A program made the translations under genes and the position numbers. This document shows positions 1 to 4,863 of a stretch of DNA of 64,000 nucleotides, piece after piece; the stretch's first letter is position 1; every line of letters starts with the position of its first letter. The stretch is from positions 248,001-312,000 of the forward strand of contig NZ_JAHSPR010000002.1 of the NCBI RefSeq assembly GCF_019132845.1, in the 5' to 3' direction. The stretch is from Advenella alkanexedens. Its GTDB lineage: Bacteria; Pseudomonadota; Gammaproteobacteria; Burkholderiales; Burkholderiaceae_B. The notes under the pieces were generated by a model that was given only the letters and a program-made list of their open reading frames with translations, ran no database searches and was not told the DNA's origin.

Positions 1-118
1 CGCGCAAGGCTTCCTGCTCAGTGGCTGACTGGTAAATACGCTTGAGCCCGGCAGCAACTGCCTTGTAGTCCTTGTAGGGCACGTACTTCATCGCGTTGCG
101 TACCATCGTAGACTTACC
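1..118 (-). pseudogene. IS256-family (Mutator-type) transposase fragment
   Basis: Read on the minus strand, this stretch encodes TMVRNAMKYVPYKDYKAVAA and then GLKRIYQSATEQEALR, which matches the region of IS256-family transposases around the conserved VRNS/AxKYV segment. Upstream of the T the frame meets a stop after three codons (stop-G-K-S), so the left part of the gene is missing and homology breaks off near position 115. The other side runs off the window edge. Without the rest it cannot be said whether the fragment belongs to a longer relic. It is the outermost piece of an IS-rich junction. Confidence 0.7.
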
Positions 119-178
119 TTAAAAAGGCACAAACGAAAACCAGAGATTTCTGCCATGATTCTTTACATGGAGGAAATC

Positions 179-310
179 ATGAAACGATCTAAATTTACCG
201 AAGCCCAAATCGTCAGCATTTTAAAACTCGCTGAACAGGGTGCTAAAGTGACCGATATCTGCCGTGAACACGGCATCAGCAGTGCCACTTATTACCAATG
301 GAAAGTGTAA
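179..310 (+). pseudogene. Truncated IS3-family OrfA (transposase N-terminal HTH)
   Basis: The 43-residue frame starts MKRSKFTEAQIVSILKLAEQ and runs through TDICREHGISSATYYQWK, the classic HTH of IS3-family (IS407-like) OrfA. It has a good GGAGG-type ribosome site just upstream. Normal OrfA is about 85-90 residues, so only the DNA-binding half is left. After the QWK codons the DNA still resembles the usual 'KY' continuation, but with one extra base that creates the stop. An IS66-like end then begins at about 316, so the element seems to have been disrupted by IS66. No OrfB is visible. Confidence 0.75.
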
Positions 311-402
311 ATACCGTAATGCTCCGGCCAGTGCCGTCTAGAATTCTGTTTTAAATTCTAGCAATATAGATGTCCATTTATTCAACTAGGTTTTGATGCG
401 TT

Positions 403-621
403 ATGGATGTTTCTCTTTATTCGGTGCCAGTGGCTGAGCGACCCCGGCGTCGCTATTCAAACGAATACAAGCGCCAGGTCGTAGAGGCCTCTTTTCAGGC
501 CAATACGTCGATTGCTGCCGTTGCCCAAGCACACCAGATTAATGCCAATTTACTGCATACCTGGGTAACTGTCCGTAACTGTCCGGTAAAGTCATCTTTT
601 CAAGTCGCTAATAAAATATGA
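403..621 (+). pseudogene. IS66 OrfA N-terminal fragment
   Basis: The first 50 or so residues (RRRYSNEYKRQVVEAS, then SIAAVAQAHQINANLLHTW) are the HTH domain of the IS66-family OrfA protein. From about position 570 the reading continues into unrelated residues and stops after 72 codons, against a usual 110-140. The junction contains a doubled ACTGTCCG. The protein would have a DNA-binding half only and is almost certainly non-functional for transposition. Confidence 0.7.
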
Positions 622-640
622 ACATACTTGTCCACTATCG

Positions 641-736
641 CAAATGGACACGTATGGACTATCTAGAAGAAATCAGCCCGCCAGCCGTATTGCTGAACTG
701 TTGCCGCATAATTGGCAACCACAGACAGCGATGTAA
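641..736 (+). pseudogene. IS66 transposase C-terminal remnant
   Basis: The last codons read ASRIAELLPHNWQPQTAM and a stop at 734-736, which is the characteristic C-terminus of IS66-family transposases. A little upstream the matching peptide MDYLEEIS lies in the next frame (654-677), so a small indel separates the two pieces. Nothing of the catalytic DDE domain remains. The IS66 right end follows 51 bp downstream. Confidence 0.65.
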
Positions 737-885
737 AAAAACAGGTTAAAGAAAACCGCTGTCAAGATGAGATGGCCGAACGCTTACCGTGATGTAAACT
801 ACGAGTCCAGAGGATGTGTTATTCTGCACAAAATACCCTGGTTTCATAAAACAGTTATTCTCTCTATATTTAAAGGATAGTGAGC

Positions 886-1953
886 ATGTCTTTATTCTCC
901 AACGCTTTACGAAAAACCGCCACAACAGCGCTTGTAGCAACCATGCTCGTGGGTACCACCGCATTGGCTTGCACCCGGCTAGTCTATCATGGTGTTGATG
1001 ATCAGATTCTTACCGCCCGCTCAATGGACTGGAGCGTTGATGTGGAAACCAATTTGTGGATTTTCCCCCGGGGCATGGAAAGAAATGGCCAGGCCGGAGA
1101 GAACTCTCTTCGCTGGACCTCAAAGTATGGCAGCGTGATTTCATCCGGTTATGATATTTCAACCACAGACGGCATGAATGAAGCCGGCTTGGTGGCCAAC
1201 CTGCTGTGGCTGGTCGAGTCCAGTTACCCTGAGTTTAAAGAGGGCTCCGCACCGGGTCTGACTATTGCTGCCTGGGGACAATATATTCTGGATAACTTTG
1301 CAACGGTCCAGGAGGCCGTTGACGAACTGCGCAAGCAGCCTTATACAATCGTTACACGCGACGTACCGGGACAAAACAGGTTGGCCACGCTCCATTTGGC
1401 CATCTCCGACGCCAGTGGTGATAGTGCCATTGTGGAATATATAAATGGTCAGGCGGTGATTCATCACAGTCGTGAATATCAGGTTCTGACCAACTCACCA
1501 ACGTTTGAGCGCCAGCTGGCCTTGCATTCGTATTGGACCGAGATTGGTGGTACTGTCATGCTGCCAGGCACCAACCGTGCCGCGGACCGCTTTACGCGTG
1601 CCGCATTCTATGTGAATGCCATTCCTCGTGACCAAGACGCGCGCAAGACTATTGCCAGCGTGTTCAGCGTTATTCGCAACGTGTCTGTGCCCTTTGGCAT
1701 CAGTACTCCTGATCAGCCCAATATTTCATCAACCCGCTGGCGTACCGTGGCTGACCAGAAGCGCATGCTGTACTTTTTTGAGAGCGCATTGACCCCCAAT
1801 GTTTTCTGGGTTGAGCTCAACAATATTGATTTTTCTGAAAAAACAGGCAAAGTCAAAAAACTGGATCTTGGTCCCAATCAGGCCAATATTTTCTCAGGTG
1901 TGGTCAATGATAAGTTCGAAGAATCCAAACCCTTCGAATTTTTGGGTCTTTGA
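886..1953 (+). CDS. Exported linear amide C-N hydrolase (choloylglycine hydrolase / penicillin V acylase family), copy 1
   Basis: 355 residues. A signal peptide (residues 1-28, ending GTTALA) is followed directly by Cys29, the expected N-terminal nucleophile of this Ntn-hydrolase family after signal removal. Family active-site residues are visible: Arg45 and Asp48 in TARSMDW, Asn203 in LTNSP, and Arg284 in SSTRWR. ATG at 886 is preferred over GTG at 880 because AAGGA at 873-877 is correctly spaced only for the ATG. Characterised Gram-negative members are periplasmic and cleave penicillin V or acyl-homoserine lactones, while gut members cleave conjugated bile salts. The substrate here is unknown. 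A close paralogue lies two genes downstream, and a beta-barrel gene sits between them. Confidence 0.88.
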   Translation: MSLFSNALRKTATTALVATMLVGTTALACTRLVYHGVDDQILTARSMDWSVDVETNLWIFPRGMERNGQAGENSLRWTSKYGSVISSGYDISTTDGMNEAGLVANLLWLVESSYPEFKEGSAPGLTIAAWGQYILDNFATVQEAVDELRKQPYTIVTRDVPGQNRLATLHLAISDASGDSAIVEYINGQAVIHHSREYQVLTNSPTFERQLALHSYWTEIGGTVMLPGTNRAADRFTRAAFYVNAIPRDQDARKTIASVFSVIRNVSVPFGISTPDQPNISSTRWRTVADQKRMLYFFESALTPNVFWVELNNIDFSEKTGKVKKLDLGPNQANIFSGVVNDKFEESKPFEFLGL

Positions 1954-1983
1954 TTTTTTGGTTATATTTAAAAGGATGCAGGA

Positions 1984-2745
1984 ATGTTTCAGTCCTATCT
2001 AAGGCGCTCACGAGCAACACTTCAGGCGGGTATGTCTGCCCTGGTCTGTTGTCTGGTTTCATCAGCGGCATTCGCACAGGATACCGGTTGGTATGGGCAA
2101 ATTACTCCTTATGTCTGGGCAACCGGTATGGGAGGTCATCTTAAGCCTTTTTCAGGAGCGCCTTCCATTTCATTCGAGCGGTCTTTTTCAGACACACTGA
2201 AAGACCTGGATGCCGCATTTTTTATTAATGGTTTTGCAAGAAAAGACCGTTTCGTGGTTTCCGCAGACTTGCTCTATGCCAGTCTTTCCAGAAAAGGAGA
2301 GGTTTTTCCCGATATTTCGGCCAAGGGTAAGCTGCGCATGACTGCGCTGACCCTTACCGGAGGATATCGGGTTCTTGATGACTCAGTCGTGGCCCTGGAT
2401 GTCATGGCGGGTGCGAGGGCCTGGCGTACACGGGCTTCTGTCAGCGTGCCGGTCATTGGAGAACATCTGTCCGAGACGAAAAAATTTGTTGATCCGATTG
2501 TTGCATTACGTGCCAATTTCACTTTGAGTCCTGACTGGTCCATTCTGGCGTATGGTGATATTGGTGGCTTGGGTGCCGGATCAGAACTCACCAAGCAAGT
2601 TGCCTTAAGTGCCAATTATCAAGTGAATGAAAATATCTATGTATCAACCGGATATCGTTATCTTTACCTGGATTACAAACAGAACGGGACGCGGATTGAT
2701 ACAAAATTGACGGGTCCGTTTCTTGGGCTGACCTGGAGATTCTGA
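1984..2745 (+). CDS. Outer-membrane beta-barrel protein of unknown function
   Basis: 253 residues. The signal peptide probably ends at residue 31 (AAFA, then QDTGWYG). The rest alternates hydrophobic and polar residues in short segments, such as LTLTGGYRVLDDSVVALDV and VSTGYRYLYLDYK, and the protein ends in Phe (GLTWRF), a BAM-recognition-type C-terminus. The pattern suggests a small barrel of about 8-12 strands, related in look to Omp25/OmpW-like proteins, but no named family is recognised. It starts 30 bp after the first amidase with AAAAGG upstream, and the second amidase follows 23 bp later, so all three are probably one transcript. It might help substrate entry or product release; that is inference. 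Confidence 0.75.
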   Translation: MFQSYLRRSRATLQAGMSALVCCLVSSAAFAQDTGWYGQITPYVWATGMGGHLKPFSGAPSISFERSFSDTLKDLDAAFFINGFARKDRFVVSADLLYASLSRKGEVFPDISAKGKLRMTALTLTGGYRVLDDSVVALDVMAGARAWRTRASVSVPVIGEHLSETKKFVDPIVALRANFTLSPDWSILAYGDIGGLGAGSELTKQVALSANYQVNENIYVSTGYRYLYLDYKQNGTRIDTKLTGPFLGLTWRF

Positions 2746-2757
2746 GGGATTCTGAGG
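2738..2757 (+). repeat. Perfect tandem 10-bp repeat across a stop codon
   Basis: GATTCTGAGG occurs twice head to tail. The first copy contains the TGA stop of the barrel gene. The second supplies GAGGCAG, the only ribosome-site-like sequence before the next gene's ATG at 2769. A small slippage duplication may thus have set the spacing to the second amidase. Confidence 0.8.
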
Positions 2758-2768
2758 CAGAGCTACGC

Positions 2769-3824
2769 ATGAGCCAGCTTTTGCTGGCTTCTTCATTACT
2801 TTTAAGTAGGATAACAATAGCTATGGCATGTACACGAGTGGTTTATTTGGGCGAAGAGCAGCAGATTATTACAGCTCGCTCAATGGACTGGAAAATGGAT
2901 TTGGGCACCAATCTGTGGGCTTTGCCCCGTGGGGTGAAACGCCAGGGGCAGGCAGGCGCAAACTCTCTTTCCTGGGAGTCCAGGTATGGCAGTCTGGTTG
3001 CCACGGGCTATGATATTGCCACCACTGACGGGCTTAATGAAAAAGGTCTGGCTGTTAACCTGTTGTGGCTGGTCGAATCAGAATATCCAACATTTACGCC
3101 AGAAAGCAAACCCGGCTTGAACATTTCCCTGTGGGCGCAATACATGCTGGATAGTTTCGCTTCGGTCGATGAGGCCGTCAAGGCACTGGAAAAAGAACCC
3201 TTTACCCTGGTGACCGATCAGGTTCCGGGGCAGGGCCGTCTGGCAACTTTGCATCTTTCATTGTCGGATGCCTCCGGAGACAGTGCCATTGTTGAATATA
3301 TTGGTGGCAAGCAGGTGATTCACCATGACCGGAAATACCAGGTCATGACCAACTCGCCTGTATTTGGTGATCAGTTGGCGCTTAATGCTTACTGGAAACA
3401 AATTGGTGGCACCGTGATGCTACCGGGTACCAATCGGGCAGCGGATCGTTTCGTACGCGCATCGTTTTATGTGGATGCGATCCCGCAAAAAGCACCTATC
3501 GCCGAAGCCTTGGCCAGTATGTTTGGCGTTATCCGGAATGTTTCGGTGCCTTATGGTATTGCTTCTGAAACCGAGCCGAACATATCGTCAACCCGCTGGC
3601 GAACCGTGGTTGATCACAAACATTTGAATTATTTCTTTGAGTCGGCTTTCAGTCCCAATACTTTCTGGGTAGACCTGAAAAAAATCGATTTTGGCATGGA
3701 TCCATCCAAAGCCCTGAAGCTGGATTTGGGCCCCATGGCAAGCCAGGTATATGCAGGCGAAGTCTCGTCCTCTTTTGAGCCAGCCCAGCCATTTACCTTT
3801 TTGTCAGTGGGTGCTGGTAAATAG
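2769..3824 (+). CDS. Exported linear amide C-N hydrolase (choloylglycine hydrolase / penicillin V acylase family), copy 2
   Basis: 351 residues, closely similar to the protein at 886-1953 along its whole length (shared VANLLWLVES-like, DASGDSAIVEYI, GGTVMLPGTNRAADRF and NISSTRWRTV segments). The predicted nucleophile is Cys21, with Arg37 and Asp40 in TARSMDW. The leader (MSQLLLASSLLLSRITIAMA) is unusual: it has no positive n-region and carries Arg14 inside the hydrophobic stretch. Export is likely but less certain than for copy 1. No better upstream start is visible. The pair probably arose by duplication around the barrel gene. Substrate is unknown; penicillin V, bile salts and acyl-homoserine lactones are candidates. 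Confidence 0.87.
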   Translation: MSQLLLASSLLLSRITIAMACTRVVYLGEEQQIITARSMDWKMDLGTNLWALPRGVKRQGQAGANSLSWESRYGSLVATGYDIATTDGLNEKGLAVNLLWLVESEYPTFTPESKPGLNISLWAQYMLDSFASVDEAVKALEKEPFTLVTDQVPGQGRLATLHLSLSDASGDSAIVEYIGGKQVIHHDRKYQVMTNSPVFGDQLALNAYWKQIGGTVMLPGTNRAADRFVRASFYVDAIPQKAPIAEALASMFGVIRNVSVPYGIASETEPNISSTRWRTVVDHKHLNYFFESAFSPNTFWVDLKKIDFGMDPSKALKLDLGPMASQVYAGEVSSSFEPAQPFTFLSVGAGK

Positions 3825-3889
3825 CTAGCACTGTGCAGTAGCGCAGGCGCTTGGATATCCGGTTTTTTCCGGATGCGCTTTTGAACTGA

Positions 3890-3932
3890 CCCCAAAAAAC
3901 TGGACCCGTTTTCAGTCTTTTTGGGGTTTTTT
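3890..3932 (+). terminator. Rho-independent terminator after the amidase cassette
   Basis: CCCCAAAAAACTG pairs with CAGTCTTTTTGGGG (one bulged base) across a short loop, and a TTTTTT run follows at 3927-3932. It lies 65 bp after the second amidase. A smaller hairpin (ATCCGG, six Ts, CCGGAT) lies just before it. The left arm, TGAACTGACCCCAAAAA from 3883, also resembles the end of an IS150-type IS3 element, so it could be an IS relic that now serves as terminator. Confidence 0.7.
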
Positions 3933-3989
3933 AATATTGTTCAAGTGCGCGATAAGCCACACCGTTTATGTATTGGGATTCAGCAAGCC

Positions 3990-4256
3990 ATGGGTGGCCA
4001 GTCATGAGCGGTCGGGTTTCATGGGGTCCCGGAAGGGATTTTGCTGGAGCGGCTTCGTTATATCAATGATGAGCCCATTTCCTATGTGCAAACCTGGCGG
4101 CCTACCTGCAGGTTAAAAACAGAAGCCCCTTGTTGCAATTGCAGGCCAGTTATTACCGCCTGGCACCGTGAAGACAAAGTGGTGTTTGATATTGCCGTTG
4201 ATGCCTCTTTGGAAAACAGGATTCAGGTGAAAAATTTTCAGCGCGTGCTAAAGTAA
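3990..4256 (+). pseudogene. Decayed GntR-family regulator (UTRA domain remnant)
   Basis: Three pieces of a UTRA ligand-binding domain can be read in order but in different frames: GILLERLRYINDEPISYVQT (from about 4030), then VKNRSPLLQLQASYYR (from about 4110), then ITAWHREDKVVFDIAVDAS ending at 4256. The section normally lying between the first two is deleted, and no GntR winged helix is found upstream. At least one internal deletion and two frame changes make it a pseudogene. The original ligand cannot be inferred. Confidence 0.6.
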
Positions 4257-4290: not shown

Positions 4291-4863
4291 ATGACCCAGT
4301 TAGTACCTGTCCTTTCATTTGTCCATCAGCTCTTAAGACAGGTGGTGCAGCCTGGCGATGTAGCGGTTGATGCCACCATGGGAAACGGACATGATACGGT
4401 GGTACTGGCCCAATGTGTGGGGGCCGCAGGCAAGGTGTATGCGTTTGATGTGCAGGAACAGGCCTTGCATAAAACACGCCGTCGCCTGCAGGCAGCCGGT
4501 CTTGACGATCAGGTTGAATTGATTTGCCAGGGCCATCAGTATATGAACGAACACGTGCGACAGGGCGTGTCGGCGGTTATTTTTAATCTGGGTTATTTGC
4601 CGGGCGGCAACAAGGCGCTGACTACCCAGCGGGACACGACGCTGGCCGCCACTACCCAAGGGCTGGCTTTGTTGCGACAGCATGGTTTGTTATTGCTGGT
4701 GATTTATCCCGGGCATGAACCGGGCAGAATAGAGCAGGAAGCCATTGAGGGCCTGGTAACCGGGCTGGATCAGCAGCATTTCCAGGTACTGCGTTACCAG
4801 TTTACCAACCAGAAAAACAACCCCCCCTATTTGCTGGCTATTGAAAAGCTGTCTACCGGTTAA
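4291..4863 (+). CDS. Class I SAM-dependent methyltransferase, MnmM/YtqB-like
   Basis: 190 residues matching the YtqB/MraW_2 family. The SAM-binding motif AVDATMGNGHDTVVLA lies near residues 25-40. VYAFDVQEQAL (about 50-60) is the ribose-binding acid loop, and VIFNLGYLPGGNK (about 96-108) is the diagnostic NLGYLPGG motif. The B. subtilis homologue methylates the wobble uridine side chain (nm5s2U to mnm5s2U) in tRNA. That activity is plausible here, though proteobacteria commonly use MnmC. The gene ends 4 bp inside the convergent gene at 4860. Confidence 0.8.
   Translation: MTQLVPVLSFVHQLLRQVVQPGDVAVDATMGNGHDTVVLAQCVGAAGKVYAFDVQEQALHKTRRRLQAAGLDDQVELICQGHQYMNEHVRQGVSAVIFNLGYLPGGNKALTTQRDTTLAATTQGLALLRQHGLLLLVIYPGHEPGRIEQEAIEGLVTGLDQQHFQVLRYQFTNQKNNPPYLLAIEKLSTG

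Follow-up and report, generated by a model that had tools for sequence, protein, structure and literature searches.

A recurrent gene neighbourhood of CGH-family acylases and a putative outer-membrane barrel in Advenella alkanexedens and its relatives

The locus and its genes

We analysed a stretch of 64,000 nucleotides from Advenella alkanexedens (contig NZ_JAHSPR010000002.1, positions 248,001 to 312,000; hereafter the window), whose source genome comprises 2.99 Mb in 20 contigs. Near the left end of the window three open reading frames (ORFs) follow each other on the plus strand: an exported Ntn hydrolase of the choloylglycine hydrolase (CGH)/penicillin V acylase (PVA) family (acylase A), a putative outer-membrane beta-barrel of an unnamed family and a second, paralogous Ntn hydrolase (acylase B). 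The gaps between them measure only 30 bp (A to barrel) and 23 bp (barrel to B), and the tight cluster in the order amidase, barrel, amidase that had been described in an earlier note on this DNA is thus present as stated. Both enzymes belong to a known family, and the barrel that accompanies them is uncharacterised; the association of the two is real and recurs beyond the window. We read the trio as an envelope acylase module in which the barrel would admit N-acyl amides and both acylases would cut them in the periplasm, with N-acyl-homoserine lactones (AHLs) as the best candidate substrates, and give this reading a probability of about 0.5.

The coordinates of all features are listed in Table 1. 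For acylase A there is a second open start, a GTG at 880. The segments directly before A (864-885) and before the barrel (1962-1983) are near-identical leaders resembling TATATTTAAAGGAT. A scan for promoters and terminators returned 9 and 5 sites compared to 4.4 and 4.2 expected, and hence nothing firm.

Table 1. Features at the left end of the window.
Feature	Position	Strand	Details
Acylase A (exported CGH/PVA-family Ntn hydrolase)	886-1953	+	355 aa from ATG; nucleophile Cys 29
Putative outer-membrane beta-barrel, unnamed family	1984-2745	+	253 aa; weak OMP_b-brl and TIGR04219 matches
Acylase B (long-diverged paralogue of A)	2769-3824	+	351 aa; nucleophile Cys 21
Deletion scar, outside the module	3889-4255	+	remnants of an operon intact in loci L066 and L067
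rRNA methylase gene (PF06962), outside the module	4291-4863	+	right-hand anchor common to both trio-bearing relatives
Insertion-sequence debris	1-788		presumably the start of an IS3-like orfA near 178-309 and an IS66-like piece near 403-570 (labels from the translation)

The two acylases

Both enzymes belong to the CGH family: the Pfam profile CBAH of linear amide C-N hydrolases scored 166.9 bits for A and 158.2 bits for B at a curated cut-off of 20.4, and a search of the whole genome with this profile returned only these two proteins. A and B are 63% identical across 332 residues. We compared them with the solved entries 5j9r, which we take to be one of the AHL-active CGH enzymes of Shewanella loihica, and 4wl2, presumably PaPVA of Pectobacterium atrosepticum. 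A showed 71.8% identity to 5j9r and 62.3% to 4wl2, B 65.6% and 66.4%, respectively. A literature search on 5J9R found nothing. The residues with catalytic roles in the family, namely the nucleophile Cys, the Arg and Asp of ARSMDW, the Asn of TNSP and the Arg of GTNRA, are kept in both proteins when mapped onto 4wl2. A and B also share the binding residues and a Trp-Trp pair with the solved enzymes, and the Cys corresponds to the first residue of the solved chains.

The Trp-Trp pair could point to a different role, in which A and B would be true penicillin V acylases that detoxify beta-lactams or other small amides, while the barrel would be a porin whose co-location carries little weight. The equal closeness of B to the two solved entries (66%) is in line with such a role, and according to a review the pair has been linked to penicillin V binding (PMC8066178). 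The same review reports, however, that two similar CGH enzymes of Shewanella loihica cleave AHLs and neither penicillin V nor bile salts, so that the pair is not decisive (PMC8066178). Moreover, A is nearer to 5j9r than to 4wl2, and the NCBIfam model for penicillin V amidase, PenVAmdYxeL, gave 72.8 bits for A and 75.7 bits for B, far below its cut-off of 600. We consider detoxification as the main role quite improbable. The bile salt hydrolase equivalog NF038245 has the family and the catalytic Cys in common with A and B, but their scores of 98.4 and 87.4 bits are far under its cut-off of 350, and consequently we do not file them as bile salt hydrolases.

Both proteins carry a predicted signal peptide with an AxA motif directly ahead of the catalytic Cys. 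Across the family alignment (53 rows) the pattern caught 50 rows and showed Ala at position -1 in 43 of these; six of the remaining seven are apparently misanchored and one has Pro. A lipoprotein signal would prefer Leu at -3, which occurred in none of the 50 caught rows. As AxA abuts the Cys, ordinary signal peptidase cleavage would be expected to uncover the nucleophile. We then considered the ratio of nonsynonymous to synonymous divergence (dN/dS) among three species, represented by the window and the genomes G040 and G150. It lay between 0.04 and 0.07 for A, between 0.09 and 0.15 for B and between 0.14 and 0.36 for the barrel. A and B are under purifying selection; the values indicate that the enzymes were kept as working proteins and that the barrel is changing faster. 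With the catalytic residues intact, the suggestion that both amidases are exported and probably active is borne out as far as prediction from the sequences goes.

The barrel protein

The middle protein was assigned with less ease. It starts with a signal-peptide-like segment and ends in Phe. The OMP_b-brl profile matched with 26.3 bits (E = 9.8e-06), just short of the curated cut-off of 28.7, and TIGR04219 matched with 40.7 bits (E = 1.6e-10) at a cut-off of 105. Thus it resembles the barrels of both models in a weak match over most of its length and differs from them in falling below both curated cut-offs. At E ≤ 0.01 OMP_b-brl was found in 13 of 29 aligned barrel relatives. Beta-like alternation was detected in 18 non-overlapping 9-mers, compared to a mean of 11.6 and a maximum of 16 in 200 shuffled sequences. 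A single-sequence search of solved structures gave one match at E = 0.33.

Members of the barrel family also occur in other company. In L092 (7482-8924), L093 (7638-9167) and L094 (4444-5976) they stand beside DUF1254/DUF1214-type proteins, two of which were scanned by profile and the third assigned by clustering. This suggests a barrel family that partners several kinds of exported protein. A literature search for DUF1254 together with DUF1214 found nothing. A protein of ∼293 aa that has no Pfam match adjoins the barrel in two species of the order with small genomes (L164, 7706-8587; L166, 5815-6693), and in L164 it is placed between the barrel and the CGH enzyme.

Barrel and enzyme in related genomes

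We searched 200 genomes of the family, among them the source genome, and obtained barrel matches in 56 and matches to a CGH enzyme, distant members included, in 77. Both genes were found in 44 genomes and lay within 5 kb of each other in 26 of these, whereas random placement in genomes of an assumed 3.5 Mb would yield ∼0.3 such pairs. The layout was tandem in 9 genomes, divergent in 17 and convergent in 1; one genome shows two of these layouts. The 26 genomes span 10 genus codes and the adjacency involves two far-apart CGH subfamilies. One genus contributes nine of these genomes and the genus of the window another seven, so that they do not amount to 26 independent events. In the ten genomes sampled from the genus Advenella the two genes are either both present and always adjacent (7/10) or both absent (3/10).

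The full trio was encountered in three of the 200 genomes (G000, G040 and G150), all from Advenella. The search for the trio in relatives that the earlier note had proposed thus succeeded within the genus; elsewhere the barrel is accompanied by one enzyme. The same trio in two further genomes of the genus, together with the 26 of 44 genomes with both genes close by, excludes a chance order. The recurring partnership between enzyme and outer-membrane protein that had been proposed from the sequence therefore holds up, and the situation that would have spoken against it, barrel homologues that never adjoin such amidases, did not arise.

Beyond the family the picture is sparser. Among 398 genomes sampled across the phylum, 61 had a barrel match and 32 a CBAH match. 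The cases of adjacency there (G000, G401 and G491) all show the order of the window, with three genes between barrel and enzyme in G401 and one in G491. Outside the order a barrel profile search of 13 neighbourhoods of CGH enzymes (L169-L181, two of them ending at a contig edge) found no barrel. Spread by plasmids was considered as well: 26 plasmid records matched, none over more than 80% of the trio.

History of the trio

An enzyme tree of 53 rows places A within a widespread clade, its nearest relative outside the trio being that of G089, and B with the enzymes of G189 and G142. A grouping of A and B was rejected (approximately unbiased test, p-AU = 3e-63) and the synonymous divergence (dS) between them is 2.76; the pair is hence not the recent chance duplication that the earlier note had allowed for. 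Placing A with the whole B clade, G142 and G189 included, was disfavoured less strongly (p-AU = 0.026). In G189 and G142 the barrel and B form a pair with no A upstream, and AhpC/TSA-type and enoyl-reductase-type genes stand there instead. The most parsimonious account is that barrel and B formed a pair first and that A joined them afterwards in one branch of the genus; A may also have been lost in the other branches.

We also studied the barrel tree (36 rows, unrooted). A branch with support 98/95 splits 16 barrels that stand beside PVA-clade enzymes from 7 beside the distant CGH subfamily, with 13 rows of neither group on both sides and some long branches meeting. The tree looks as if barrel and enzyme had diversified together.

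The divergence within the trio is uneven. Between G040 and G150 the dS values of A (0.20) and B (0.18) are the lowest of 13 genes, the others ranging from 0.43 to 1.12, and the barrel that lies between them shows 0.67 (loci L066, 7051-9972, and L067, 8178-11105). Between the window and G150 A and B are likewise the lowest of 7 genes, and between the window and G040 (4 genes) the dS of the barrel is also low at 0.28. Codon bias is slight in A and B, which rank 7 and 8 among the 50 ORFs of the window, and such a bias hardly accounts for the low values through high expression. Gene exchange may lie behind them.

Proposed function

Cleavage of N-acyl amides in the periplasm would be the best-supported activity of the trio. 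In the mechanism we propose, export itself would uncover the N-terminal nucleophile of A and B, the barrel would sit in the outer membrane and let an N-acyl amide into the periplasm, and A and B, with overlapping or split acyl preference, would cut the amide bond to release an acid and an amine. The likeliest substrates would be AHLs or similar N-acyl amides of external origin, and the enzymes may cleave penicillin V as a side reaction. AHL degradation has been reported for PaPVA and AtPVA in the review cited above (PMC8066178). The barrel and the acylases probably work together at the cell surface, and the uptake role of the barrel is inferred from its gene neighbourhood. With the Gram-negative PVAs and AHL-active CGH acylases (4wl2, 5j9r) A and B share the CGH family and 62-72% identity; unlike those, the two paralogues here flank a barrel, and the term "outer membrane" does not occur in the review (PMC8066178). 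An association between barrel and CGH enzymes was not described in any of the titles or abstract openings searched, in which the coverage of subscription journals is thin. A recurrent outer-membrane partner provides a genetic handle on the role of the Gram-negative penicillin-V-acylase-like enzymes, and the association is the first functional lead for the unnamed barrel family.

A narrower proposal goes further and is possible but doubtful: a dedicated entry channel in the outer membrane and periplasmic CGH acylases that capture and destroy, or feed on, the N-acyl signals of other bacteria, the two parts having diversified together within the order. If true, such a two-part system would give the Gram-negative enzymes a physiological role. 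A benefit from quorum quenching is corroborated by only limited studies according to section 5.2 of the review (PMC8066178).

Several results weigh against the uptake and cleavage of foreign amides by a dedicated module. In 18 of the 44 family genomes with both genes these are not within 5 kb, and the barrel occurs without any enzyme match in 12 genomes; some of the assemblies behind these two counts consist of hundreds of contigs. In the phylum sample both genes were present in 14 genomes and within 5 kb in only 3 of them (counts from our own reading of two match tables). Mapped onto the enzyme tree, the presence of a barrel within 5 kb requires 12 changes, at least 10 of which are forced by well-supported branches, compared to a mean of 17.9 after shuffling; the adjacency has thus arisen or disappeared on many occasions. 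The DUF1254/DUF1214-type neighbours described above show that the barrel is not exclusive to acylases. An AlphaFold2 model of the barrel from three sequences reached a predicted local distance difference test score (pLDDT) of only 27.5, and a profile search of solved structures returned no relative at E ≤ 1. Finally, a profile search of the 200 family genomes found no LuxI match in any of the ten Advenella genomes, and a self-made signal is therefore an improbable substrate. This search gave 38 matches at E ≤ 0.001, 7 of them over the cut-off. Strong matches (E < 1e-20) were confined to three genomes (G003, G008 and G061), none of which is among the 26 with adjacent genes, and weak matches below the cut-off were found in six adjacent genomes of another genus. 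An earlier search for LuxI in the source genome was also negative and shows little, as its control matched 0 of 14 genomes.

The scattered occurrence raises the question of whether the neighbourhood reflects a joint function at all, or whether the link between barrel and enzyme is one of common inheritance as a block of genes or of joint regulation and nothing more. The genomes with both genes apart and those with the barrel alone agree with such a link, as do the 16 of 26 adjacent genomes that come from two genera and the cases with one or more genes between barrel and enzyme. It does not readily explain that adjacency recurs across ten genus codes, in different layouts and with two CGH subfamilies, at a frequency far above the chance expectation, or that within Advenella the two genes are present together or absent together. 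We regard a neighbourhood without joint function as rather improbable.

The main rival is envelope remodelling, in which the acylases would target N-acylated constituents of the producing cell's own envelope, e.g. amino-acid-containing lipids, and the barrel would serve the same process as an outer-membrane enzyme, a sensor or a structural protein and not as a channel. The lack of a LuxI match in the genus and the unrelated exported proteins that adjoin relatives of the barrel are consistent with this. Against it, the best solved homologues of A and B belong to a kind reported to act on small, diffusible amides, provided that the entries are those we take them to be, and no lipid-synthesis gene was seen among the annotated neighbours, which make up part of all neighbours. 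Another indication in favour of remodelling comes from Brucella abortus, where a cgh deletion mutant was reported to show altered outer-membrane proteins and polymyxin resistance (PMC3234258). Taken together we consider remodelling unlikely, and uptake followed by periplasmic cleavage remains our preferred reading.

The flanking regions

Both the insertion-sequence debris on the left and the decayed GntR/UTRA remnant on the right that the earlier note had mentioned are present. The acquired cassette with a lost regulator at which it had hinted was not upheld. Downstream of B, G040 and G150 carry genes for a KdgT permease, a DUF1537-type kinase, PdxA and a GntR/UTRA regulator and then the rRNA methylase gene; the trio thus precedes the same methylase gene in the relatives. 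The kdgT - DUF1537 kinase - pdxA - gntR operon is intact in L066 and L067, and the regulator is best assigned to this sugar-acid operon, of which the remnant in the window is the tail. Within the scar a piece from upstream of kdgT (3970-4022) overlaps by 13 bases with one from the 3' portion of the gntR/UTRA gene (4010-4255). The overlapping remnants indicate one large deletion that removed the operon and smaller deletions inside the regulator remnant.

On the left the homology with the relatives starts at 789. The relatives carry a tRNA-Arg, cytochrome c, UvrD-like helicase and PriA genes on this side, the tRNA-Arg(CCG) being located ∼470 bp (L067) or ∼420 bp (L066) upstream of A. We rejected integration at this tRNA, as no further copy of its 3' end is present in L067. 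In the source genome the insertion-sequence remains are followed further left by an IS66 transposase, a dynamin-like GTPase, a HerA-like ATPase and an IS256 remnant. Most likely the left side was rearranged after the trio was in place. The GTPase (664 aa) and the ATPase (1043 aa) lie in L065 (1-8107, reaching the first bases of the window). The ATPase matched the PADLOC models HerA and mad8 weakly, and the island in L065 is possibly a defence-type module.

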